Positions 279 through 13,037 of a stretch of 64,000 bases of DNA are shown piece by piece. Location of the stretch: positions 1 to 64,000 of the forward strand of contig MKJV01000087.1 in assembly GCA_001942185.1 (NCBI GenBank), written 5' to 3'. The DNA is from Pseudonocardia sp. CNS-004 (GTDB lineage: Bacteria; Actinomycetota; Actinomycetes; Mycobacteriales; Pseudonocardiaceae). A program made the position numbers and the translations under genes. The notes beneath the pieces were generated by a model. That model worked only from the letters and a program-made list of their open reading frames with translations. It did not search any database and was not told where the DNA came from. Numbering within the stretch: position 1 is the stretch's first letter; every line of letters begins with the position of its first letter.

Positions 279-2167
279 ATGCCCGAGCTGATCGATCTCG
301 AGGAGTTCTTCGCCGACCCGCGGTTCGCCGTGCCGACCATCTCCCCGGACGCACCCGGATCGCTTACCTGGCACCGAACCACGGGCGGCGCAACGTGTGG
401 GTGCGGGGCGTCGACGAGGAGCACTCCGACGCGGTGTGCGTCACGAACGACACCCGGCGCGGGATCACCACGTACTACTGGACCGACGACCCGCGGATCA
501 TGCTGTACCTGCAGGACACCGACGGCAACGAGGACTGGCACCTCTTCCGCGTCGACCTCGACGACCCCGACGCGCCCGCCGTCGACCTGACCCCGATGGA
601 CCCCGGATCCCGCGTGGCCGGCGTCGAGCCGTACCGGCCCGCCCCGGGCACCGTCCTCGTCTCGATGAACCAGCGGCCGATGTTCTTCGACATCTTCCGG
701 GTCGACATCGCCACCGGCGAGACGGTGTTGCACCGCGAGCAGGACGCCCCGGGCGACGCCGTCCTGCTCGACCTGGACGGCGAACCGGCGTTCCACACCG
801 CGCTGGCCGAGGACGGCACCGTCGATCTCTCCGCGATCGACCCCGTTACCGGCGAGAAGCGGCTCCTGCGCCGGATGGGCGGCGTGGAGCATCCGATGGG
901 CGTCCAGCCCCAGCAGGTCACCGCCGGCGGGAAAGGGCTGCTCGTCGGCTCCTTCCAGGACGGCGACGACCTGCAGCTGGTGCGCATCGACCGGGATACC
1001 GGCGAGGAGACCGTCGTCGCCGCCGTCGACGGCCACGACCTCGACATCAGCGGTTCCATGCTCCCCGGGGTGCTGCCGCCGCCGGTGCACACCAGCCGGA
1101 GCACGGGCGAGGTCCTCGCCGCCCGTTTCGTCGCCGACCGCCCGCACATCGAGGTCCTCGACCCGCACTTCGCCGAGGTCTACGCGCACCTGCAGAAGCT
1201 CTCCGACGGTGTGCTCGGCACGCTGTCCGTGGACGAGTCCGGGCAACGCTTCGTCGTGACCTTCATCCACGACCGCGACCCGGGCGTCACCTGGTTCTAC
1301 GACCACGCCGCCGGCGAGGCCCGGATGCTGTTCCGCGCCTTCCCGGACCTCGACCCGGACACGATGGCCCCGATGACGCCGGTGGCCCTCACCGCCCGCG
1401 ACGGGCTGCCACTGCACGCGTTCCTGACACTCCCGGTCGGGGTCGAGCCACGGGCGCTGCCGCTGGTCCTGGTCGTGCACGGCGGGCCGTGGACGCACGA
1501 CTCCTGGGTCTTCAACCAGGAGGCGCAGTTCCTGGCCAACCGGGGCTACGCGGTGCTGCAGGTCAACTTCCGCGGTTCCCTCGGCTACGGGCGCCGGCAC
1601 GTCACCGCCGCGATCGGCGAGTTCGCCGGCGCGATGCACGATGACCTGATCGACGCCGCCGACTGGGCCGTCGCCCAGGCTACGCCGACCCCGCCCGCAT
1701 CGGCATCTACGGGGCTCCTACGGCGGGTACGCGGCGCTCGTCGGCGTCACCGTCACCCCCGACTACTTCGCCGCCGCGGTCGACTACGTCGCATCTCGGA
1801 CCTCGCCAACTTCATGCGCACGCTGCCCCCGTTCACCAGGCCCTACTTCGCCGCCAACTGGTTCGGCTACGTCGGCAACCCCGACGACCCGGCCCAGGAA
1901 GCCGACATGCTGGCCCGGTCGCCCATCACGATGACCGACCGCATCCGCACCCCATTGCTCGTCGCCCAGGGCGCCAACGACGTCCGCGTCGTGCAGGCCG
2001 AGTCCGACAACATCGTCGCGTCGCTGCGCGACCGCGGGATACCCGTCGAGTACCTCGTGGCCGAGGACGAGGGGCACGGCTTCAACAACCCGGAGAACCG
2101 CCGGCGGCTCTACCGCGCCATCGAACGGCACTTCGCAGAACACCTCGGTGGCCGCCGAGGCGGGTGA
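279..2167 (+). CDS. S9 family peptidase (prolyl oligopeptidase/acylaminoacyl-peptidase type), frameshifted
   Basis: A beta-propeller N-terminal half (DPRIMLYLQDTDGNEDWHLF and similar WD/TolB-like blades) is followed by an alpha/beta hydrolase domain. The hydrolase has the LVLVVHGGPW oxyanion segment, a broken G-x-S-Y-G-G-Y nucleophile elbow near 1716, Asp in AQGANDVRV near 1980 and His in DEGHGFNNPENR near 2076, so the Ser-Asp-His triad is complete after repair. The ATG at 279 follows a GGAGAGG and matches the family N-terminus (ISPDG...). The frame breaks near 355, then three more single-base losses occur near 1680, 1714 and 1790. Those three add up to one codon, so the reading frame stays open while the peptide across the active-site serine is scrambled. 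Repaired length is about 630 aa. It is probably a cytoplasmic peptidase; the substrate is unknown. Confidence 0.88.
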
Positions 2168-2672
2168 CCGGCGCGCGCCAAGTCACGTGCTTGATCGGAC
2201 CGGAGCATCTTCCGTTGATTTTCGGCTCACGCACATCATCCGAGCCGACGCTGCCCGTGGACGGGTGGCATGGGCCGACACGGGGTGCGTGGCCGGAGAA
2301 CATGTGCGTGCCGCCCTGCTGCGCACCCCCGCGACATCCGCCTCCAGTGGCGCCGCGCCACGAAGGGCGGCCTACGGATGCCTCAGACCCATCAGCCCGA
2401 CACCAGTGGTCTCCACCAGCTACGTGCTGATGGATGCCGCCACGGGCTGTTCCTCGCTCATCTGCCACATGGCAGGACGCGGCCCGCGGTTTGTCCGGAC
2501 CGGTGAATCCCGCCTGCCGCAGGGGTGAACTCACACACGTATCCGAGATCTGCCGGACACCTTCCGTTAACGTCGAACGCAACACAGCTGTGCCCCGGGT
2601 GGTGCCGAGCGTCCCGCACCCGTCCCTCGAACCCGGCTGACGCCACAGCATCTTCACCCCGGAAGGTGAGAC
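2168..2672. other. Intergenic region with no recognised gene
   Basis: About 500 bases separate the peptidase from the leader ORF and NRPS. Several short frames cross it, but none has convincing codon use, a family signature or a good ribosome binding site. Near its left end is a TTGATCGGACCGG segment that resembles the half-site of the palindromic elements at 16897 and 22363, but no partner arm follows. The right part (about 2530-2600) is less GC-rich and may hold the promoter for the downstream operon. I see no RNA gene or clear terminator. Confidence 0.4.
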
Positions 2673-2741
2673 ATGCGCCCCCGCGCTGCACGCTGCCGTC
2701 GCCATGCCCGGATCGCGCCGGAAGCGGTCGGTGCCCGGTGA
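2673..2741 (+). CDS. Possible 22-aa Arg-rich leader peptide coupled to the NRPS
   Basis: An ATG at 2673 sits just after a strong GGAAGGTGAG ribosome binding site (2661-2670). It opens a 22-codon frame, MRPRAARCRRHARI..., with seven arginines, that ends in a TGA at 2739-2741. That TGA overlaps the GTG proposed as the NRPS start (2738-2740) in a GTGA junction, the usual geometry of translational coupling. No family is recognised. It could be a regulatory leader (attenuation or coupling), or an artefact if the NRPS really starts upstream and the sequence here is faulty. The ribosome binding site and the exact overlap are what is seen; the role is inference. Confidence 0.35.
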   Translation: MRPRAARCRRHARIAPEAVGAR

Positions 2742-5700
2742 CGCTCGCGCTCACTCGCACCCCCGCGCTCTACCCCACCGCCCCGCCGCCGCCCCGCCGC
2801 ACGCTGCTCGACGTCCTCGCGGAGACCGCCGCGGCGCACCCCGACGAGGCCGCGATCGACGCCGGCGCCACGGTGCTCACCTACCGCGGGCTGGTCGAGC
2901 AGGTCGACGTCGTGCGGCGGCGCCTCGCCGGCGCCGGCATCGGGGTCGGTGACCGCGTCGCGTCCGGATCTCCTCCGGCACCGCCGAGCTGTACGTGGCG
3001 ATCCTCGCCGTCCTCTCCGCGGGTGCCGCGTACGTCCCCGTCGACGCCGACGACCCCGACGAGCGGGCCGATCTGGTGTTCGGCGAGGCCGGGGTGTGCG
3101 CGGTGCTGCGCGATGGGGTTCTGGGAGACGGCGGGAGCATGACCGCCCACGGTGTGCCGATCGGCACGCCCGGCACACCCGGCCCCGACCACGACGCGTG
3201 GATCATCTTCACGTCCGGCTCGACCGGCACCCCGAAGCGTCGCGGTCGGCCACGGCTCCGCGGCGGCGTTCGTCGACGCCGAGGCGCGGCTGTTCCTCGC
3301 CGACGAGCCGATCGGGCCGGGCGACCGCGTGCTCGCGGGGCTGTCGGTCGCGTTCGACGCCTCCTGCGAGGAGATGTGGCTCGCGTGGCGCCACGGCGCG
3401 TGCCTGGTGCCGGCACCGCGGGCGCTGGTGCGCACCGGGGTCGACCTCGGGCCGTGGCTGGAGGCGCAGCGCATCACGATCGTCTCCACCGTGCCCACGC
3501 TCGCCGCGCTGTGGCCGCCGGAGGCCCTGGAGGACGTCCGGCTGCTGATCTTCGGCGGCGAGGCGTGCCCTCCCGAGCTGGCCGAGCGGGTCGCCGTCGA
3601 GGGCCGCGAGGTGTGGAACACCTACGGCCCGACCGAGGCCACCGTGGTCGCCTGCGCCGCCCAGCTCACCGGGGAGGGGCCGGTCCGGATCGGGCTGCCG
3701 CTCGACGGGTGGGCGCTCGCCGTCGTCGACGGTGTGGGCGAACCGGTCGCGATCGGCGAGAGCGGTGAGCTCGTGATCGGCGGGGTCGGGCTCGCCCGCT
3801 ACCTCGACACCGAGAAGGACGCCGCCCGGTTCGCCCCGCTCCCGTCCCTGGGCTGGGAACGCGCCTACCGCAGCGGCGACGTCGTCCGCGCCGAGGAGGC
3901 CGGGCTGGTGTTCCTGGGGCGGGCCGACGAGCAGATCAAGCTCGGCGGGCGGCGCATCGAGCTGGGCGAGGTCGACGCCGCGCTGCTCACACTGCCCGGC
4001 GTCCGCGGCGCGGCTGCCGCCGTGCGCCGCACCCGGGCGGGCAACCAGGTCCTGGTGGGATACGTGGTTCCGGACGGCGACGGTCCGGACGGCGACGGTC
4101 CGGACGGCCGCGGCCTGGACACCGACGCCGCGGCGCTCGCGCTGCGCGAACAGCTCCCCGCGGCGCTCGTGCCGCTGCTCGCCCTCGTCGACGACCTGCC
4201 GACGCGCACGTCGGGCAAGGTCGACCGGGACGCGCTGCCGTGGCCGCTCCCGGCGGCGAGCGGGGTCGACCCCGTCGCCGCGGGTCTGCTGACCCCCACG
4301 GAAGGGTGGCTGGCCGAGGGCTGGACGGAGATCCTCGGGGTTCAGGTCACCGACCCGAAGGCCGACTTCTTCAGCCACGGCGGCGGCAGCCTCACCGCCG
4401 CACAGCTGGTGGCGCGGATCCGCACGCGGTATCCGCAGGTGTCGGTCAACGACCTCTACCTGCACCCGAAGCTCCGGTCGCTCGCGACCCGGCTGGACGA
4501 GCTGACCGTCACCAGGACCGAGCGGCGCGAGGTCACTCCGACACCGCGGCGGGCGGCGGTGGCGCAGGCGCTGCTCATGGTGCCGGTGCTCACGCTGGTC
4601 GGCCTGCGGTGGGCGAGCGTGGCGGCGGCGGTCTCGACGATGGCCGCCGCGGTGGTGCCGTGGGCTCCCACGCCGTGGATGCCTACAGCGCCGTGGTGGG
4701 CGCTCGCACTGGCCTGGGTGGTGCTGTTCAGCCCGGCCGGGCGGATCGCGATCGCCGCGGGCGGCGCCCGGCTGCTGCTGCGCGGCGTGCGGCCGGGCAG
4801 CTACCCGCGCGGTGGCTCGGTGCACGTGCGGCTGTGGGCGGCCACCCGGCTGGCCGAGCTGTCCGGCGCCACCGGCGTGTCCGCCGCGTCGTGGACCACC
4901 CGCTACGCCCGCCTGCTCGGCGCGAAGATCGGCAAGGACGTCGACCTGCACTCGGCCCCTCCCGTGACCGGTCTGCTCAAGATCGGGCGCGGCGGGGCCG
5001 TGGAGCCGGAGGTCGACCTCGCGGGCCACTGGGTCGACGGCGACGTGGTGCACATCGGCAAGATCCGGATCGGCGCGGGCGCCACCGTCGGCGCCCGCAG
5101 CACGCTGCTGCCGGGTGCCCGGATCGGCAAGGGCTCGACGATCGCCGCCGGCTCGACGGTGCGCGGGGCCGTCCCCACGGGCCAGCGGTGGGCCGGTTCG
5201 CCCGCGATGAAGACCGGCAAGAGCGATGACGTGCACTGGCCGTCGGACCGCCCGGCGCACTCACGCAGGTGGGTGCTGGCCTACGGCGTGACGTCGACGC
5301 TGCTCGGGCTGGTCCCCGCGGTGGCGGCGCTGCCGGCGCTGGTGATCATCGCTGCCGGGGTCGCCGGCGCGACCTCCCCCGCGGAGGCGACGAACCGCGC
5401 GCTCCTCGTGGTGGCGCCCGCGACACTCGCGTACCTGCTCGCGTACGCGGCGGTCGTCGCGGCCGGGGTGCGCCTGCTCGGCATCGGCATGGTGGAGGGC
5501 TTCCACCCGGTGCACAGCCGCACGGGCTGGCAGGTCTGGGCCACCGAGCGGCTCATGGGCATGGCCCGCACCGGCCTGTTCCCGCTGTACTCCAGCCAGT
5601 TCACGGCCGCGTGGCTGCGGCTGCTCGGCGCGAAGGTCGGCCGCGACGTGGAGGCGTCGACGGTGATCGCGCTGCCGCGGATGACCACCGTGGCCGACGG

Positions 5701-6646
5701 CGCCTTCCTGGCCGACGACACCATGGTCGGCACGTACGAGCTCCGTGGCGGCTGGATGCACGTCGCGCCGTCACGGGTGGGCGAGCAGGCGTTCCTCGGC
5801 AACTCCGGGATGACCGCACCGGGCCGCTCGGTGCCCGACCGCGGTCTCGTCGGCGTGCTCTCCGCCGCGCCGCGGAAGGCGAAGAAGGGCTCGTCGTGGC
5901 TCGGCCTGCCTCCGATGCCGCTGCGCAGGGAGGCGGAGCGGGGTGACCCGAGCCGCACCTTCGACCCCCCGCGCAGGCTCCGGTTCGCGCGCGGTCTGAT
6001 CGAGCTGTGCCGGGTGGTGCCGGTGATGTGCTCCGCCGCGCTCGCCGTGCTGGTCGTCGGGCAGCTCGTGGCGATCCACGCGGGCGGCGGGCTCGTCGTC
6101 GCCGCGCTGCTGGCGGGGCCGCTGCTGCTCGCCGCGGGCGTCGCGGCCGCGGGCCTGACCACCGTGGCGAAGTGGCTGCTCGTGGGCCGGTTCCGGCCGG
6201 TCGAGCACCCGCTGTGGAGCTCGTTCGTCTGGCGCAACGAGCTGGCCGACACGTTCGTCGAGGTGCTGGCCGTGCCGTGGCTCGTCGGGCCGGCGAACGG
6301 CACCCCGGTGCTCACGGCCTGGCTGGAGACGATGGGCGCGCGCATCGGGCGCGGCGTGTGGCTGGAGACGTACTGGCTGCCCGAGTCCGACCTCGTGCAC
6401 CTGGGCGACGGCGCCACCGTGAACCGGGGCTGCGTTGTACAGACCCACCTCTTCCATGATCGGATCATGAGCATGGACGAGGTGCGCATCGACGACGGCG
6501 CGACGCTCGGACCCAACGGGATCATCCTGCCCGGCGCGGGGATCGGCGCGGGGACGACCGTCGGGCCGGGTTCGCTGGTCACGCGCGGCGACACCGTTCC
6601 GGCGGCCACCCGCTGGCTGGGCAACCCGATCACGACGTGGGGCTGA
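2738..6646 (+). CDS. Pls/PosA-family single-module NRPS (A-PCP plus membrane/hexapeptide C-terminus), frameshifted
   Basis: After repair of breaks near 2965 (one base) and 3238 (two bases) this is about 1,303 aa. It opens with an adenylation domain: IIFTSGSTGTPK, FDASCEEMW, NTYGPTEATVV, YRSGDVV, GRADEQIKLGGRRIELGE and the RTSGKVDRDALP lysine motif. A carrier domain follows (FFSHGGGSLTAAQL, phosphopantetheine Ser near 4390). There is no condensation or thioesterase domain. Instead there are several transmembrane segments interleaved with three hexapeptide-repeat blocks (around 4915-5215, 5620-5900 and 6330-6640). This layout defines the family of epsilon-poly-L-lysine synthetase, which makes isopeptide-linked poly-amino acids at the membrane. 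The binding pocket keeps the alpha-amino-binding Asp of FDAS and has Glu where cationic side chains are often read, so a basic amino acid is plausible but not shown. It is coupled to the M1 peptidase downstream. Confidence 0.9.
4075..4115 (+). repeat. Short in-frame tandem repeat in the NRPS
   Basis: A 15-base unit, GACGGCGACGGTCCG, is repeated twice and then partly a third time. It encodes DGDGPDGDGPDGRG in the A-domain tail before the RTSGK motif. It looks like a flexible acidic surface loop that has expanded by slippage and does not touch the core motifs. The copy number may vary between strains. Confidence 0.7.
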
Positions 6647-7971
6647 ACCGGCAACCGCCCGTCCAGGGCGCGGCCCGCTCGCGCGACCCGTACCTGCCCG
6701 CACACGGCAACGGCGGGTACCGGGTCGAGCACTACGACCTGGACGTCGACTACAAGATCTCCGCCAACCGCCTCACCGGGCGGGCGGTGCTCACCGCGGT
6801 GGCCGAGCAGCCGCTCCGCCGGTTCAGCCTCGACCTCTCGGCGTTCCGCGTGCCGCGGGTGCTCGTCGACGGCAGGTCGGCGCGGTTCGCCCACCGTGGC
6901 GGGAAGCTGCACGTCACGCCGGCGCGGCCGGTGACGGGCCGGTTCACCGTCGACGTGCGCTACGTCGGCAACCCCGCGCCGGTGTCGAGCCGCTGGGGCG
7001 ACGTCGGCTGGGACGAGCTGACCGACGGCGTGCTCGTCGCGAGCCAGCCGATCGGCGCGCCGTCGTGGTTCCCGTGCAACGACCACCCGTCGGACAAGGC
7101 GACCTACCGCATCGCCGTGACCGCCGCGGCGCCCTACACGGTGGCCGTCACCGGGGTGCTCGCGTCGCGGCGCCGTTCGGCCGGCACGCGGACGTGGGTG
7201 TACGAGTGTGCGGAGCCGACGGCAACGTACCTGGTCAGCATGCAGATCGGGCGCTACGACGACGTCGTGCTCGCCGCCGGCCCGGTGCCGCAGGTGGCGC
7301 TGCTGCCGGCCCGGCTGCGGGGGCGCGCCGCCCGCGACCTCGGCCGCCACCCCACGATCATGACGACGCTCGCCCGCTACTTCGGGCCCTACCCGTTCGC
7401 CGCCTACCAGCTCGTCGTCACCGACGACGAGCTGGAGGTCCCGATCGAGGCCCACGGAATGTCGATCTTCGGGTCGAACCACGTCGACGGGCGGCGCACC
7501 CACGAGCGGCTCGTCGTGCACGAGCTGGCGCACCAGTGGTTCGGCAACAGCCTCACGATCGCCGACTGGAGCCACATCTGGCTCAACGAGGGCTTCGCGA
7601 CGTACGCGGAATGGCTGTGGTCGGAGGCGGTGGGGGGCCGTGCGGCGGCGGCACACGCCCGGGAGTGGCACGCGCGCATGGCGGCGCGACCCGCCGACCT
7701 CGTCCTCGCCGACCCGGGGCCGGCACGCATGTTCGACGAACGCGTCTACAAACGCGGTGCACTGGTGCTGCACGCGCTGCGCACCCGCATCGGCGACGAG
7801 CGCTTCTTCGCGCTCCTGCCGGACTGGGCGGCGCGCCACCGGCACGCGACGGTGACCACCGCGCAGTTCGTCGAGCTGGCCGCACACCACGCCGGCGAGG
7901 ACCTCTCGGCGTTCTTCACCGCGTGGCTGCACCGTCCCGCGCTGCCTGCCCTCGCCGCGAGAGGTCGCTGA
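6637..7971 (+). CDS. M1 family metallopeptidase (aminopeptidase N-like, short form)
   Basis: This intact frame of 444 aa starts at a GTG (6637) that overlaps the TGA of the NRPS by ten bases, so the two are probably translated together. The zinc site is complete: VVHELAHQWFGN (HExxH) followed by the downstream Glu in WLNEGFATYAEWLW. An IEAHGMSIFG stretch stands where M1 enzymes have the exopeptidase GxMEN motif. It lacks the long C-terminal region of PepN, as many short actinobacterial M1 enzymes do, and has no clear signal peptide. Its position suggests it acts on the NRPS product, for trimming, recycling or self-protection; degradation of epsilon-poly-lysine by Zn aminopeptidases is known in producers. 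This functional link is inference. Confidence 0.88.
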   Translation: MGLNRQPPVQGAARSRDPYLPAHGNGGYRVEHYDLDVDYKISANRLTGRAVLTAVAEQPLRRFSLDLSAFRVPRVLVDGRSARFAHRGGKLHVTPARPVTGRFTVDVRYVGNPAPVSSRWGDVGWDELTDGVLVASQPIGAPSWFPCNDHPSDKATYRIAVTAAAPYTVAVTGVLASRRRSAGTRTWVYECAEPTATYLVSMQIGRYDDVVLAAGPVPQVALLPARLRGRAARDLGRHPTIMTTLARYFGPYPFAAYQLVVTDDELEVPIEAHGMSIFGSNHVDGRRTHERLVVHELAHQWFGNSLTIADWSHIWLNEGFATYAEWLWSEAVGGRAAAAHAREWHARMAARPADLVLADPGPARMFDERVYKRGALVLHALRTRIGDERFFALLPDWAARHRHATVTTAQFVELAAHHAGEDLSAFFTAWLHRPALPALAARGR

Positions 7972-7977
7972 CCGCGG

Positions 7978-8771
7978 TCACGACGCCGCTCTGCGGATCG
8001 CGGAGCGGGTGCGCCGCACGAGCGAGTAGCCGTTCGTCAGCGCTCGGTCCACCGCGAACACCCGGTGCAGGTCGGTGCAGTCGGCGATGCGGGCGAAGTC
8101 CTTCGGCGTGGTCGAGCGCCGCACCGTGAGCCGCGGGGTGGTGAACACGTTGCGGCCCGGCCGCGACGCGGCGTTGGCCACCGCGGCGGCCTGCTCGTAG
8201 CCCGCCTCCTCCACGGCGTCGCGCACGCGACGGCTCCAGTAGCCGTACGGGTAGGCGAGGCTCGGGACCGGCTCGCCGAGCCGCTCCTCCAGGAGCAACC
8301 TGGCGAGCGACAGCTCCTCGCGCAACGACCGGCCGTCGAGCTGGTCGAGCTGGGCGTGGCTGTGGCTGTGGGCCGCCACCTCGATCCCGCTGTCGTGCAG
8401 CTCCCGCACCTGCGTCCACGCCATCGTCCGATCCAGCGGGCGGCCCGCCGAGCGGGGCCCCGCGTCACGCAGCCACCCCGTCGTGACGAAGACCGTGGCC
8501 GGGAACCCGTACTCCTGCAGGAGTGGCAGCGCCTGCTCGTGGGTGTCGGCGTAGCCGTCGTCGAAGGTCAGCACGACGGGCCGGGCCGCAACTCCGCACC
8601 GGTTCGGCTGTGGGCCCACAAGTCGGCGAACGTGAGCCCGGTGAAGCCGCTGTCGCGCAGGTGGCGCAGCTGCCGGCCGAGATCCGCCGGTCGCACGGAC
8701 AGCGACCGCGTCTCGGCGGGCGGGTCGTCGGCGACCGAGTGGTACATGAGAACGGGCACCTGCCCCGTCAT
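7978..8771 (-). CDS. Polysaccharide deacetylase family protein (NodB domain), frameshifted
   Basis: The N-terminus MTGQVPVLMYHSVADDPP, the metal and catalytic segment VVLTFDDGYADTHEQAL and the HSHSH metal-binding motif identify a carbohydrate esterase family 4 enzyme. These remove N-acetyl groups from extracellular or cell-wall polysaccharides. The frame breaks near 8595 between the YHS region and LTFDDG; repaired length is about 264 aa. The ATG at 8771 overlaps the stop of the upstream glycosyltransferase by four bases (ATGA), so the two form an operon that may build and modify one surface glycan. No signal peptide is seen. It ends tail to tail with the M1 gene. Confidence 0.88.
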
Positions 8772-9844
8772 GCCTGCTCCTCCGTCGAGCGGGACCGGGC
8801 CACCCGCGCCCGCCCCACCACGTAACCCGCGGACGTCCAGGCGAACCCCGCGACGATCGCGCCGGCCCGCAGCACGCCCCCGAGGTCGCCGACCAGCCCC
8901 TCGCTCAGCCCCTTCGTGACGCCGCGCCGCAGCGCGAGGGCAGCGTATGCGCGTTCGTCGGCCAGCCCGTCGCCGACCCCGACGCTGTCGGTGACGAGCG
9001 CCTTCGACAGCCCCTCCGCGTAACAGCGCGTGCGGTAGTAGGCGAATCGCTGCCGCGTGACCGGGACCCGGTGGTGGATCACGGCCTGCGGCGTGAAGAT
9101 GAATTTTCCGTTCGGGAACCGCTGGCCCGCCCGGATGCAGAGCTCGGTCTCCTCACCCCCGAGCGGGCGCGATCCCGCCGACGACCGGCCGATGTGGGTG
9201 GGAAACCCGCCGATGGCGTCGAACAGGTCGCGCCGGAATGCGGCGTTTCCGCCGTGCAGATTGCGGACGATTCCGGGGTTGCGCCCGGCGTGGGTGCAGC
9301 CCACGACCCAGTCGAACTCCCGCGGCCACCACCGCGGGCGCTCGGTGGCCCACGCGGGCAGCGTCAGCCCGCCCACGCCGAGCACGTCGGGGTGGGCGAA
9401 ACGGCGGGCGAGCGCCTCGAGCCACCCCGGATCGGCCACCGCGTCGTCGTCGAGGAACGCGACGACATCACCCTGCGCGAGCGCCACACCGGTGTTCTTT
9501 CCCCCGGACAGCCCGCGGACCTGCGCGTTCTCGACCACGGTCACGTCGAGTTCCGCGGAGAACCGCGCGTACAGCGCGGGATTGTGGTCGACGACGAGGA
9601 TCACCTCGCGCGGCTGCGGCACCTGAGCGCGAGCCGACGCGACCGCCGCCAGGGTGTCGTCCCACCGATCGTCTGCGAAGGCGCAGATCACGACCGACAG
9701 GCTCGGCAGCTCGTCCCGGTCGGCCTCCCCCGCCCCGGCCGGATCGCTGCCCATCGATCCTTGGTTTTTGGCATCACGAATCATCTGCATCGTCCCCCCG
9801 GACGCATCCCCATGATCAACGGTTTGTGCCGTTATCGACCGCAT
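8768..9844 (-). CDS. Family 2 glycosyltransferase
   Basis: This intact frame has LPSLSVVICAF at the nucleotide-sugar entry strand, GLSGGKNTGVALAQGDVVAFLDDDA as the DxD metal site, NLHGGNAAFRR and GGEETELCIRA. These are typical of GT-A fold family 2 enzymes that add sugars to glycolipids or polysaccharides at the cytoplasmic face of the membrane. A hydrophobic stretch near the C-terminus (AGAIVAGFAWTSAGYVV) could attach it to the membrane. The ORF starts with ATG at 9844, but the conserved domain begins about 45 residues in, so a later start is possible. It is coupled to the deacetylase and divergent from a second GT2 gene. The sugar donor and acceptor are unknown. Confidence 0.9.
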   Translation of the reverse strand: MRSITAQTVDHGDASGGTMQMIRDAKNQGSMGSDPAGAGEADRDELPSLSVVICAFADDRWDDTLAAVASARAQVPQPREVILVVDHNPALYARFSAELDVTVVENAQVRGLSGGKNTGVALAQGDVVAFLDDDAVADPGWLEALARRFAHPDVLGVGGLTLPAWATERPRWWPREFDWVVGCTHAGRNPGIVRNLHGGNAAFRRDLFDAIGGFPTHIGRSSAGSRPLGGEETELCIRAGQRFPNGKFIFTPQAVIHHRVPVTRQRFAYYRTRCYAEGLSKALVTDSVGVGDGLADERAYAALALRRGVTKGLSEGLVGDLGGVLRAGAIVAGFAWTSAGYVVGRARVARSRSTEEQA

Positions 9845-9974
9845 CGGCCGTTGCGCCCAGACCGTTACATACCGATCACAGCTACGCTACGTGCACATTT
9901 CGCCACGGGACGGGCCTTTCCGGGACACCGGCCCGGCGTCATCGCCCCTGGACGGAGCGCGGTACCGTCGTGGC
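9845..9974. promoter_or_regulatory. Divergent promoter region between two glycosyltransferase genes
   Basis: These 130 bases lie between oppositely oriented GT2 genes and are clearly less GC-rich than their surroundings (for example the stretch around CCGTTACATACCGATCACAG at about 9860-9880). They must hold the promoters of both genes. I cannot assign -35 and -10 boxes with confidence and see no strong palindrome. Confidence 0.4.
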
Positions 9975-10804
9975 GTGCCGCCGATTCCCAGCGTGTCCGT
10001 GTGCATCCCGGTCTACAACGGCGAGCAGTTCCTGGCCGAGACGATCCGCAGCGTGCTCGCCCAGACCTACCAGGACTTCGAGCTCGTTTTCCTTGACAAT
10101 GCAAGCACCGACCGCAGCGCCGAGATCGCGCGGTCGTTCTCCGACCCGCGCATCCGCTTCGAGCACAACGACACCCTCCTGCCGCAGGGCGACAACTGGA
10201 ACCGCGTCGTCGAGCTCGCCCGCGCCCCGCTGGTGAAGGTCGTCTGCGCCGACGACCTGCTGCACCCGCGCTGCCTGGAGCTGCAGGTCCCGCCGCTGGA
10301 GGCCGACCCCGGCATCGCCGTCGTCGCCGCGCGCCGCCACATGATCGACGAGCGGGGCAAGGTGATCGCGCCCCGGCGCGGGCTGCGTGCCTGATCGGCG
10401 TCCACACCGGCGTCGAGGTGGCCCGGCGCGTCGTGCGCAACGGCGCCAACCCGATCGGCGAGTCCAACAACGTGCTCTTCCGTCGCGCCGACTTCTTCAC
10501 CGTCGGTGGCTGGCGGGCCGACCGGTCCCACGTCATGGACCTCGACATGTGGCTGCGGCTGCTGCAGGTCGGCGACTTCCTCGGGCTCCCCCAGACGCTC
10601 GCCGCCTTCCGCATCGCCACCGAATCGATCACCTCCCACAGCGACGAGCGGCTCTACGAGCAGCAGCGTGCGCTCATCGAGGAGCTCGGCGAGTCGGGCT
10701 ACTTCCAGGTGCGTGGGGTCGACCTCACCGTCGGCCGCCTGAGCGCACCGGCAGGCCGGGCGCGCAGGCGCGCGCTCTACACGCTGACGAAGCTCACCGG
10801 CTGA
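9975..10804 (+). CDS. Family 2 glycosyltransferase, frameshifted
   Basis: It starts at GTG 9975 (VPPIPSVSVCIPVYNGEQFLAE), which leaves the usual short lead before the first strand; an upstream ATG at 9891 is in frame but adds an unrelated tail. It has the GT2 hallmarks SVCIPVYNGE, FLDNASTD and CADDLLHPRCLE, where the DD pair is the metal-binding site. The frame breaks near 10392, where one G is missing before the tgcctgatc segment. The chain continues as CLIGVHTGVEVARRVVRNG to a TGA at 10804, giving about 276 aa. A late VMDLDMWLRLL matches the catalytic-base region. The last bases overlap the stop of the convergent LysR gene. It probably acts with the divergent GT2 and deacetylase on a surface glycan. 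Confidence 0.88.
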
Positions 10805-11737
10805 CCCGTCCGCCGATCCCCGCGAGGGGTGTCGGCAGCGCGGCGCAGGCGAGTAGCAACGCCTCGAGGCCCGCGGCGATCGCGGGCTGCTCGGGCGAGC
10901 CCGCGCGGACCGCGACGATCACCCGGCGGATCGGCACCGGCGAGCCGCCGATGGGGATGCGCCGCGTGTCGTGCCGCGCGGCAGCTCGGCCAGCCGCGGG
11001 ACGAGCGCGACGCCGAAGCCGCGGGCGACGAGCGCGGCGCCGGTGTCCCACTCGTCGGCGTAGTGGGCGATGTCGGGCGCGAACCCGGCGCCTGCACAGG
11101 CGAGGGTGACGAGCTGGTGGTAGGCCCGCCCGGGGTTGCTGCAGATCCACGGATCGGCGGCGAGGTCCGCCAGCGCGACGTCGTCGTGGCCGACGAGCGG
11201 GTGCTCGGGGCCCACGAGCACGTCGAGCGGTTCGTCGTAGAGGACCCGCTGGTCGATCGCCGCGTCGGACACGGGCGGGATGTCCGGCGTCGCGACGACC
11301 ACGGCGATGTCCGCGTCGTCGGCGGCGAGCAGGTCGAATGATCGGGCCGGTTCGGTCTCGCGCAACTGCAGGCGCAGCGCGGGGTGGGCGCGGCGGAGCC
11401 GGTCGAGCGCCTCGGGCACGACGGCCGACGCCGCGGTCGAGAAGCCGCAGAAGCGCAGCCTCCCACCCACGTCGCCGCCACGGTGCGCGGCCAGGTCGGC
11501 CTGCGCACGCTCCCACTGGGTGGCGAGGGTCCGCCCGTGGGCGAGGAGGGTGTGGGCGGCCTCGGTGAGCCGCACCCCGCGCCCCACCGGCTCGAGCAGG
11601 GCGACGTCGAGCTCGCGGGCCAGCGCCTGGAGCTGGTGCGATGCGGCGGACGGGGTCAGCCGGCACACCTCAGCGGCGGCGGTCACCGTGCCGTGCCGCT
11701 CGACCGCCCCGAGCACCTTCAGCCGCCGGTCAATCAT
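10794..11737 (-). CDS. LysR family transcriptional regulator, frameshifted near the C-terminus
   Basis: The first 60 residues (MIDRRLKVLGAVERHGTVTAAAEVCRLTPSAASHQL) are a winged helix-turn-helix of the LysR type. A periplasmic-binding-like effector domain follows (DDADIAVVVATPD, LDVLVGPEHPLVG). The frame breaks near 10980 after VALVPRLAELPRG; the chain then ends RRIPIGGSPVPIRRVIVAVRAG, about 314 aa in all. It is transcribed away from the flavin oxidase and Rieske genes and most likely controls them, as LysR proteins usually regulate the divergent neighbour. A perfect inverted repeat lies right at its start codon. The effector is probably the N-methylated substrate of that pathway, but this is inference. 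Confidence 0.88.
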
Positions 11738-11751
11738 GTACGAACCGTACA
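11737..11751. promoter_or_regulatory. Palindromic operator between lysR and the oxidase operon
   Basis: TGTACG-AAC-CGTACA is a perfect inverted repeat with six-base arms and a three-base spacer. It touches the lysR start codon (11735-11737) and lies about 95 bases upstream of the flavin oxidase. Its place in the divergent promoter suggests an operator for the LysR protein, including autoregulation. Confidence 0.55.
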
Positions 11752-11846
11752 AGATCATTGGTTTGATTCTTCGATGGACGCGAACAATCCCGGCGCTCAC
11801 ACTTCCCGGCAACACCACGACCACCCGGCACGAGCAGGAGCAGTGG

Positions 11847-13037
11847 ATGACCGCTCACCGCGCGATCGTCGTCGGCCTCGGCGGGCTGGGCTCCGCGGCC
11901 CTGCACCGGATCGCCGCCGAGCTCGGGCCCGGGCCGGGGGTGCTGGGGATCGAGCAGTTCGCGCTCGGCCACCGCCGCGGCGCGTCCCAGGACCACTCCC
12001 GGATCATCCGGCTCGCCCAGCACCAGGCCCACTACGCCGCGCTGGCCGCCCCGGCCTACGCGGCGTGGCACGAGGTCGAGGCCGAGTCGGGCCAGCAGCT
12101 GCTCACCCGCACCGGCGGGCTGGTCGTCGAGGACAGGGTGGCGCGGCGCGGCATCGACTCCGGCACCCGCAACATCGAGGGCTACTGCGAGGTGTTCGAC
12201 CGCTTCGGGGTGGCCTACGAACTGCTCGACGCCGACGCCCTCGTCGAGAGGTGGCCGCAGTTCCGCGTCGACGGCGGCGAGCAGGCGCTCTACCAGGCCG
12301 AGTCGGGGATCGTCGACGCCGCCAAGGCGAACGCCGTGCACATCGCGCTGGCCCGCGCACACGGCGCCGAGATCATGACCGACACGCCGGTCCGCGCGGT
12401 GCGCCCCGACGGGGACGGCGTCGCCGTGGTCACCGACCGCGGCACGCTGCGGGCCGACCGCGTCGTCGTCACCGCCGACGCCTGGACCAACCGGGTGCTC
12501 GGCGAGACGGGCCCGACGCTGCCCCTGACCGTGCTGCAGGAACAGGTCACCTACTACTCCACCCCGCACCTCGCGGAGTTCGCGCCGTCCCGGTTCCCGG
12601 TGTTCATGTGGCACGGCCGCCACAACTTCTACGGCTTCCCCGTGCACGGCGAGGTCGCCACGAAGCTCGGCCAGCACATGGGCGGGCACGAGACCACCGC
12701 CGAGGACCGCACGTTCGAGCCGGACCCGGTGCGGCGCGCGCGGTACGCGGACTTCGTCGCCCGCCACGTCCCCCGCTTCGGCGGGCCAGAGCTGTACACG
12801 AAGACCTGCCTCTACACCGTGCCCCCGGACCAGGACTTCATCATCGACACCCTGCCCGAGCACCCCCAGGTCGTCGTCGCGAACGGCGCCGGGCACGCCT
12901 TCAAGTTCGCCGCGCTCATCGGGCAGCTGCTCGCCGACCTCGTCGTCGGCCGCGCGCCCTCCCACCCGATCGACGCCTTCTCGATCACCCGCCCGGCCCT
13001 GACCGACCCGGCGTTCCCGCGCAGCTTCCACGTCTGA
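11847..13037 (+). CDS. N-methyl amino acid oxidase (MTOX / monomeric sarcosine oxidase family)
   Basis: This intact 396-aa flavoprotein begins MTAHRAIVVGLGGLGSAALHR, which carries the GxGxxGS dinucleotide-binding motif. ASQDHSRIIRLAQ is the conserved region of the DAO/MTOX family, and NGAGHAFKFAALIGQLLADL near the C-terminus matches the segment that holds the covalent FAD cysteine in related enzymes, although here the Cys is not evident. Such enzymes oxidise N-methyl groups (sarcosine, N-methyltryptophan) to formaldehyde and the free amine with oxygen. It is followed after about 40 bases by a Rieske oxygenase, a common pairing for stepwise demethylation of quaternary amines such as glycine betaine or stachydrine. 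Which compound is used here is not decided by the sequence. Confidence 0.85.
   Translation: MTAHRAIVVGLGGLGSAALHRIAAELGPGPGVLGIEQFALGHRRGASQDHSRIIRLAQHQAHYAALAAPAYAAWHEVEAESGQQLLTRTGGLVVEDRVARRGIDSGTRNIEGYCEVFDRFGVAYELLDADALVERWPQFRVDGGEQALYQAESGIVDAAKANAVHIALARAHGAEIMTDTPVRAVRPDGDGVAVVTDRGTLRADRVVVTADAWTNRVLGETGPTLPLTVLQEQVTYYSTPHLAEFAPSRFPVFMWHGRHNFYGFPVHGEVATKLGQHMGGHETTAEDRTFEPDPVRRARYADFVARHVPRFGGPELYTKTCLYTVPPDQDFIIDTLPEHPQVVVANGAGHAFKFAALIGQLLADLVVGRAPSHPIDAFSITRPALTDPAFPRSFHV

Follow-up and report, generated by a model that had tools for sequence, protein, structure and literature searches.

The window analyzed here, a 64,000-nucleotide (nt) stretch of Pseudonocardia sp. CNS-004 (contig MKJV01000087.1, positions 1 to 64,000, forward strand), carries a Pls/PosA-family nonribosomal peptide synthetase gene followed by an overlapping gene for an M1 zinc metallopeptidase. 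With a probability of roughly 0.88, this locus is a pls-pldII operon like those already known, and its predicted product is epsilon-poly-L-lysine, a polymer with antimicrobial activity. In the proposed pathway, the adenylation domain would activate L-lysine with ATP and load it on the carrier domain, and the membrane-embedded terminal domain would then join lysines via the epsilon-amino group into a chain some tens of residues long, in an enzyme having neither condensation nor thioesterase domains. The coupled M1 zinc peptidase would hydrolyze the same polymer, thereby protecting the producer or setting the chain length. The features of the locus are as follows:

2738..2970, plus strand: N-terminal synthetase piece, where the adenylation domain begins, with a GTG start; read from the translation, which aligns with relatives from VTLALTRTPALYP onward.
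2959..3237, plus strand: second adenylation-domain piece, in a different frame and ending in an SGSTGTPK motif; AMP-binding match (2.6e-12), with a frame break on both sides.
3236..4261, plus strand: remaining adenylation domain with all ten code residues (DAESIGTVVK); placed by the match to structure 7WEW and the alignment.
4307..4495, plus strand: carrier (thiolation) domain with the phosphopantetheine serine codon at 4388; PP-binding match, residues 358-420 of the 1,136-residue piece.
4559..6631, plus strand: terminal domain with hexapeptide repeats and hydrophobic segments that fall into three groups; TIGR02353 match, residues 442-1132 of the 1,136-residue piece.
6644..6646, plus strand: synthetase stop codon, within the start region of the M1 frame.
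6637..7971, plus strand: M1 metallopeptidase of the PldII type without a recognizable export signal, with HELAH at residues 295-299 and E318 (zinc site); from PF01433 (9.2e-31), PF17900 (1e-9), motifs across 95 aligned sequences, a leader scan and a tree.

The synthetase is encoded at window positions 2738-6646 in three frame pieces, and the third (3236-6646, 1,136 residues) holds most of the adenylation domain together with the carrier domain and the entire terminal domain. This piece matched all 695 positions of the NCBIfam model TIGR02353 ("Pls/PosA family non-ribosomal peptide synthetase") with 733.9 bits (E 1.8e-220; cut-off 423.1 bits), as well as the Pfam models AMP-binding, AMP-binding_C (22.3 bits, slightly below its 24.5 cut-off), PP-binding, Hexapep and Hexapep_2; its Pfam matches at E 0.01 included none to a condensation or thioesterase model. 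The adenylation core motifs that were looked for are present, as is the carrier serine within GGGSL. Hydropathy placed the hydrophobic segments in three groups (about 4550-4765, 5270-5503 and 5993-6187), compatible with three helix pairs in the terminal domain, and an additional weaker segment at 4130-4189 lies inside the adenylation domain. Pfam, TIGR02353 and hydropathy agree with the adenylation-carrier-membrane-hexapeptide layout, lacking condensation and thioesterase domains, that had been described in a first-pass annotation of this DNA. An upstream GTG at 2666 was considered as the synthetase start, the frame being open there and alike in near kin, but GTG 2738 was kept because that is roughly where conservation starts among more distant relatives.

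The gene as sequenced is interrupted near 2.96 and 3.24 kilobases (kb). The first and third pieces share one frame and the middle piece (about 2959-3237) is shifted; therefore, the two breaks compensate each other. They are probably assembly errors, because open, intact homologs up to 91% identical to the window synthetase read through both break sites, because a neighboring gene also changes frame (an upstream S9 peptidase-like gene at 191-2167, named by eye, near position 345 relative to three relatives), and because the assembly is 83% complete. The alternative, in which both breaks are real mutations and the locus is a decayed, non-functional copy, can point to two breaks inside 300 nt of this assembly and was judged unlikely: the remaining 1,136 codons contain no further stop or shift, close relatives have intact copies, and the frame change in the S9 peptidase gene together with the completeness of the assembly favors sequence error. 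The ratio of nonsynonymous to synonymous substitution rates (dN/dS) of about 0.19 against three relatives (L010, L009 and L011, over some 1,120 codons) also argues against decay, though a recent loss would escape such a value.

The breaks are without effect on the substrate code because all pocket residues sit in the unbroken third piece. Among solved structures, the synthetase most closely resembles 7WEW, the epsilon-poly-L-lysine synthase adenylation domain (72% identity over the aligned stretch; E 1.1e-144), a similarity far beyond chance that, with the full-length TIGR02353 match, bears out the earlier assignment to the Pls/PosA family. In the same alignment columns, the ten-residue code of the window, DAESIGTVVK, is identical to that of Streptomyces albulus 7WEW at 10 of 10 positions; the full code is thus the Pls code and not one for a neutral amino acid. 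The Asp for the alpha-amino group and the Glu that the first-pass annotation had noticed in FDASCEEMW are both present (3353). The choice of the ten residues followed the GrsA numbering, together with the PosA residues named in PMC10522769. Code position 2 has been proposed to set chain length, with Phe corresponding to diaminopropionate or diaminobutyrate, Met to ornithine and Ala to lysine, as in Pls (PMC10522769). The Ala at this position and the 10/10 match to Pls therefore point to L-lysine as the probable substrate.

Exactly DAESIGTVVK was found in 107 of the 126 rows (aligned sequences) compared, with 7WEW and the window counted in. Of the 29 relatives L009-L037, for which similarity was the sole search criterion, 27 carry the same code, one (L031) differs at one position, and one (L022) is unreadable because its frame is broken. 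The 80 named loci gave 77 identical codes, two off by one position and one unreadable, a set biased at two code positions because the search patterns contained ASCEEMW. For 13 more distant family members (L131, L133-L144), the code starts with DF in 12 cases and with DG in one (L140). A quick maximum-likelihood tree of 121 synthetase rows, in which 7WEW fills only 29% of the columns, separated the 108 rows with DAE codes, among them 7WEW and the window, from all others by a branch whose support in the Shimodaira-Hasegawa-like approximate likelihood ratio test (SH-aLRT) is 100. The window accordingly falls inside the Pls clade, and not outside the polymer-producing clades, which was the outcome named beforehand as contrary to the annotation. 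Outside the DAE group are L140 and the 12 DFE rows; the DFE rows group weakly (64), and the tree program warned of long branches in that part of the tree. The rows nearest to the window are L010 (91% identity) and L009, both of the same genus, and the nearest named genera in the tree include Prauserella and Amycolatopsis.

These results bear on whether the synthetase might instead produce another cationic polymer, i.e., poly-ornithine, poly-diaminobutyrate, poly-diaminopropionate or poly-beta-lysine. The enzymes for all of these belong to one family, in which slight alterations of the pocket distinguish the known products (PMC10522769), and the same genome holds a second synthetase, of the diaminopropionate type, on contig C10. 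Set against this are the Ala at position 2 and the complete code match to Pls (the code of the poly-beta-lysine enzyme lay outside the comparison), the position inside the Pls clade, and the linkage to a PldII-type M1 gene, a same-strand M1 match being found for none of the 13 distant members in the DNA examined (which for L134 did not extend downstream). A product other than epsilon-poly-L-lysine is therefore quite improbable.

The M1 gene runs from GTG 6637 to its stop at 7971 and, as the earlier annotation had stated, begins inside the synthetase stop region, with a 10-nt overlap; the identical -10 offset occurs in six relatives (L009, L010, L012, L013, L014 and L022). This overlap suggests that pls and the M1 gene are coupled here. 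The zinc residues H295, E296, H299 and E318 are invariant in all 95 pls-linked M1 rows. An apparent loss of the exopeptidase Glu of the GAMEN motif was discarded, as it appeared in a gapped reading only; aligning IEAHGM to this motif, in a register set by eye, keeps E271, which is likewise invariant in 95 of 95 rows.

Linkage of the two genes extends well beyond the window. With adjacency taken as an M1 start -120 to 400 nt from the synthetase end, the synthetase is immediately followed by an M1 gene in 25 of the 29 relatives and 67 of the 80 named loci; among the 13 named loci lacking it there, two end at the synthetase and two have an M1 gene about 0.7 and 2.2 kb off. For the relatives without an adjacent M1 gene (L034-L037), just 0.6-1.3 kb downstream was examined, except that 6.8 kb without M1 was covered for one of them, G017 (L129). 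Whole-genome searches of 80 relatives found a close pls in 30 (28 codes were read; G015 was unreadable and G078 was not read). An M1 of at least 50% identity was present in 27 of these 30, adjoining pls every time, and in none of the other 50 genomes (Fisher p 2.6e-18, uncorrected for relatedness and with an identity limit set after the table was seen); some of the other genomes carry more distant, free-standing M1 genes of at most 45% identity. In 31 of the 94 pls-linked M1 genes besides that of the window, the chosen start lies exactly 4 nt ahead of where the synthetase stop ends, and overlap is possible in 76, counts which the start-choice rule itself favors. In the M1 tree, the pls-linked rows form one clade (support 99) apart from 28 free-standing rows, and the window M1 is inside it; the proposed partnership thus stands, the enzyme grouping with PldII-type peptidases encoded beside pls. 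That it is an ordinary housekeeping aminopeptidase located there by chance is the least probable alternative of all, for while its catalytic motifs are those of generic M1 enzymes and the solved structure closest to it is 6A8Z, a two-domain "zinc metalloprotease", all 27 genes of at least 50% identity in the 80 relatives adjoin pls and the pls-linked genes form their own clade. The function of PldII has also been published for S. albulus (PMC9223678).

Additionally, L034-L037, L145 (same genus), L092, L097 and several Kitasatospora and Streptomyces loci have a DAE-coded synthetase for which no adjoining M1 gene was found in the DNA examined. Several of these synthetases sit in side clades of the synthetase tree, and the L145 contig has two synthetase-like matches close together.

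Several observations weigh against an epsilon-poly-L-lysine operon. The gene as sequenced is broken twice and is possibly a recent pseudogene, and the code of the 80 named loci is partly fixed by construction through the ASCEEMW search patterns. The code predicts the activated amino acid and says nothing of linkage or length. Nine of the named loci have no M1 gene in the 2.3-4.6 kb downstream that was examined, and three relatives (G013, G017 and G045) have a close pls without a close M1. Finally, although a Pls homolog from Corynebacterium variabile, 51% identical to Streptomyces Pls, led to epsilon-poly-L-lysine when expressed in S. coelicolor, which speaks in favor of the predicted product, neither C. 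variabile itself nor C. glutamicum expressing its gene yielded detectable polymer (PMC8117764).

The leaderless, probably cytosolic peptidase of this clade is the single feature that might surprise a specialist. No export signal was recognizable in 88 of the 95 pls-linked M1 enzymes, the window's included, as judged from a 15-residue hydropathy mean and a reading by eye of the twin-arginine pattern. These 95 rows, which take in two loci whose M1 gene is not directly adjacent (L116 and L117), were scanned upstream as far as the nearest stop or a point 90 nt inside the synthetase gene. The window M1 reaches a maximum of -0.54 and the leaderless rows at most 1.08 (L089, with 14 residues, was too short to score), whereas seven Streptomyces rows (L038, L040, L041, L044, L045, L050 and L069) have a twin-arginine-like leader, i.e., two arginines followed by a hydrophobic stretch (1.36-1.93). 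The leader-bearing locus L038 is 93% identical to 7WEW. All 28 free-standing M1 homologs examined, of 38 rows, have a hydrophobic N-terminal stretch (1.61-2.80), although their whole upstream open frame was scanned, which favors high values. The pls-linked clade splits into the seven leader-bearing rows (99) and 87 leaderless rows (97), a topology compatible with a single loss of the leader. Because the Streptomyces rows L061, L094 and L104 group with the leaderless set in both the synthetase and M1 trees, the split follows gene lineage and not host genus.

On this basis, the degrading enzyme of the window is probably cytosolic; therefore, it may serve in intracellular protection or turnover. 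A broader proposal, offered tentatively and with more doubt than confidence, is that, across many actinobacteria not of the S. albulus type, a single loss of the export signal has left the pls-coupled peptidase working in the cytosol. The pair would then be an intracellular make-and-break system, serving quality control of unexported polymer or turnover of cell-associated polymer, rather than a secreted antibiotic with a degrader outside. If true, this would help to explain carriers such as C. variabile that show no polymer in culture. A leaderless PldII was not reported in a literature search that was limited and did not include the original PldII paper, giving weak grounds for regarding this point as new. 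Comparing exported with leaderless peptidases would be a clean contrast and could reveal the purpose of the peptidase, and perhaps of the polymer, in natural hosts.

No wider shared cluster was apparent: only the synthetase and M1 genes are common to the window and the flanks of six relatives (L118-L122 and L125; roughly 6-9 kb a side, frames of at least 120 residues, more than 45% identity, E 1e-20), with L120 additionally matching window genes at 11.0-14.4 kb. The upstream S9 peptidase and the downstream deacetylase and glycosyltransferase frames, all named by eye, are unlinked to the pair in those six relatives. In the translation of the S9 peptidase-like gene, a garbled stretch around 1.7 kb hints at a further frame change.

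Other members of the family were also encountered. The second synthetase of the same genome (contig C10, locus L131, 2964-7271) has 1,436 residues, a code starting DFE and a TIGR02353 score of 757 bits, and it is flanked by SbnA-type (1568-2650) and SbnB-type (10832-11917) 2,3-diaminopropionate genes and further nonribosomal peptide synthetase pieces. From its gene content, this region (1568-11917) looks like a poly-diaminopropionate cluster, and Streptomyces producers that make such a polymer alongside epsilon-poly-L-lysine are known (PMC8117764). Contig C86 of the same genome (locus L132, 4973-10129, minus strand) encodes a TIGR02353 terminal domain in an 853-residue frame without an adenylation domain and a separate adjoining adenylation frame, being either a split family member or a broken one. 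Plasmids of Mycobacterium avium and M. intracellulare (NZ_CP059000.1, NZ_AP012556.1, NZ_CP076859.1, NZ_CP023152.1 and NZ_CP076857.1) carry a Pls/PosA gene with 65% identity over 40% of the query.

The first-pass annotation had proposed a cationic isopeptide polymer that was possibly not yet described for this lineage. The cationic part of this proposal agrees with the predicted epsilon-poly-L-lysine (10/10 code), which is not a new polymer. Novelty for the lineage holds at most for the exact genus and as chemistry only: the excerpts of PMC8944477 and PMC9973853 contain no report of epsilon-poly-L-lysine in Pseudonocardia, and a predicted cluster is in print for Amycolatopsis (PMC11004387). The findings thus extend the biosynthesis operon of a food preservative, with a clear substrate prediction, to an actinobacterial genus allied to Amycolatopsis and Prauserella.

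Among known systems, the closest is pls-pldII of S. albulus, a published coupled pair (PMC9223678; PMC8117764), with which the window shares the domain layout, the ten code residues (relative to 7WEW) and an adjacent coupled M1 gene. The two differ in that S. albulus PldII is reported outside the membrane (PMC9223678), whereas the window M1 has no recognizable leader, unlike the M1 enzymes of the seven leader-bearing Streptomyces loci. The operon of C. variabile likewise joins a Pls homolog with a peptidase (PMC8117764) but belongs to another lineage, and it is likened here from the publication. PosA, the delta-poly-L-ornithine synthetase of Acinetobacter baumannii, shares the family and the pocket Asp and Glu (PMC10522769); it differs in having Met at code position 2, where the window has Ala, and in its single-gene operon.

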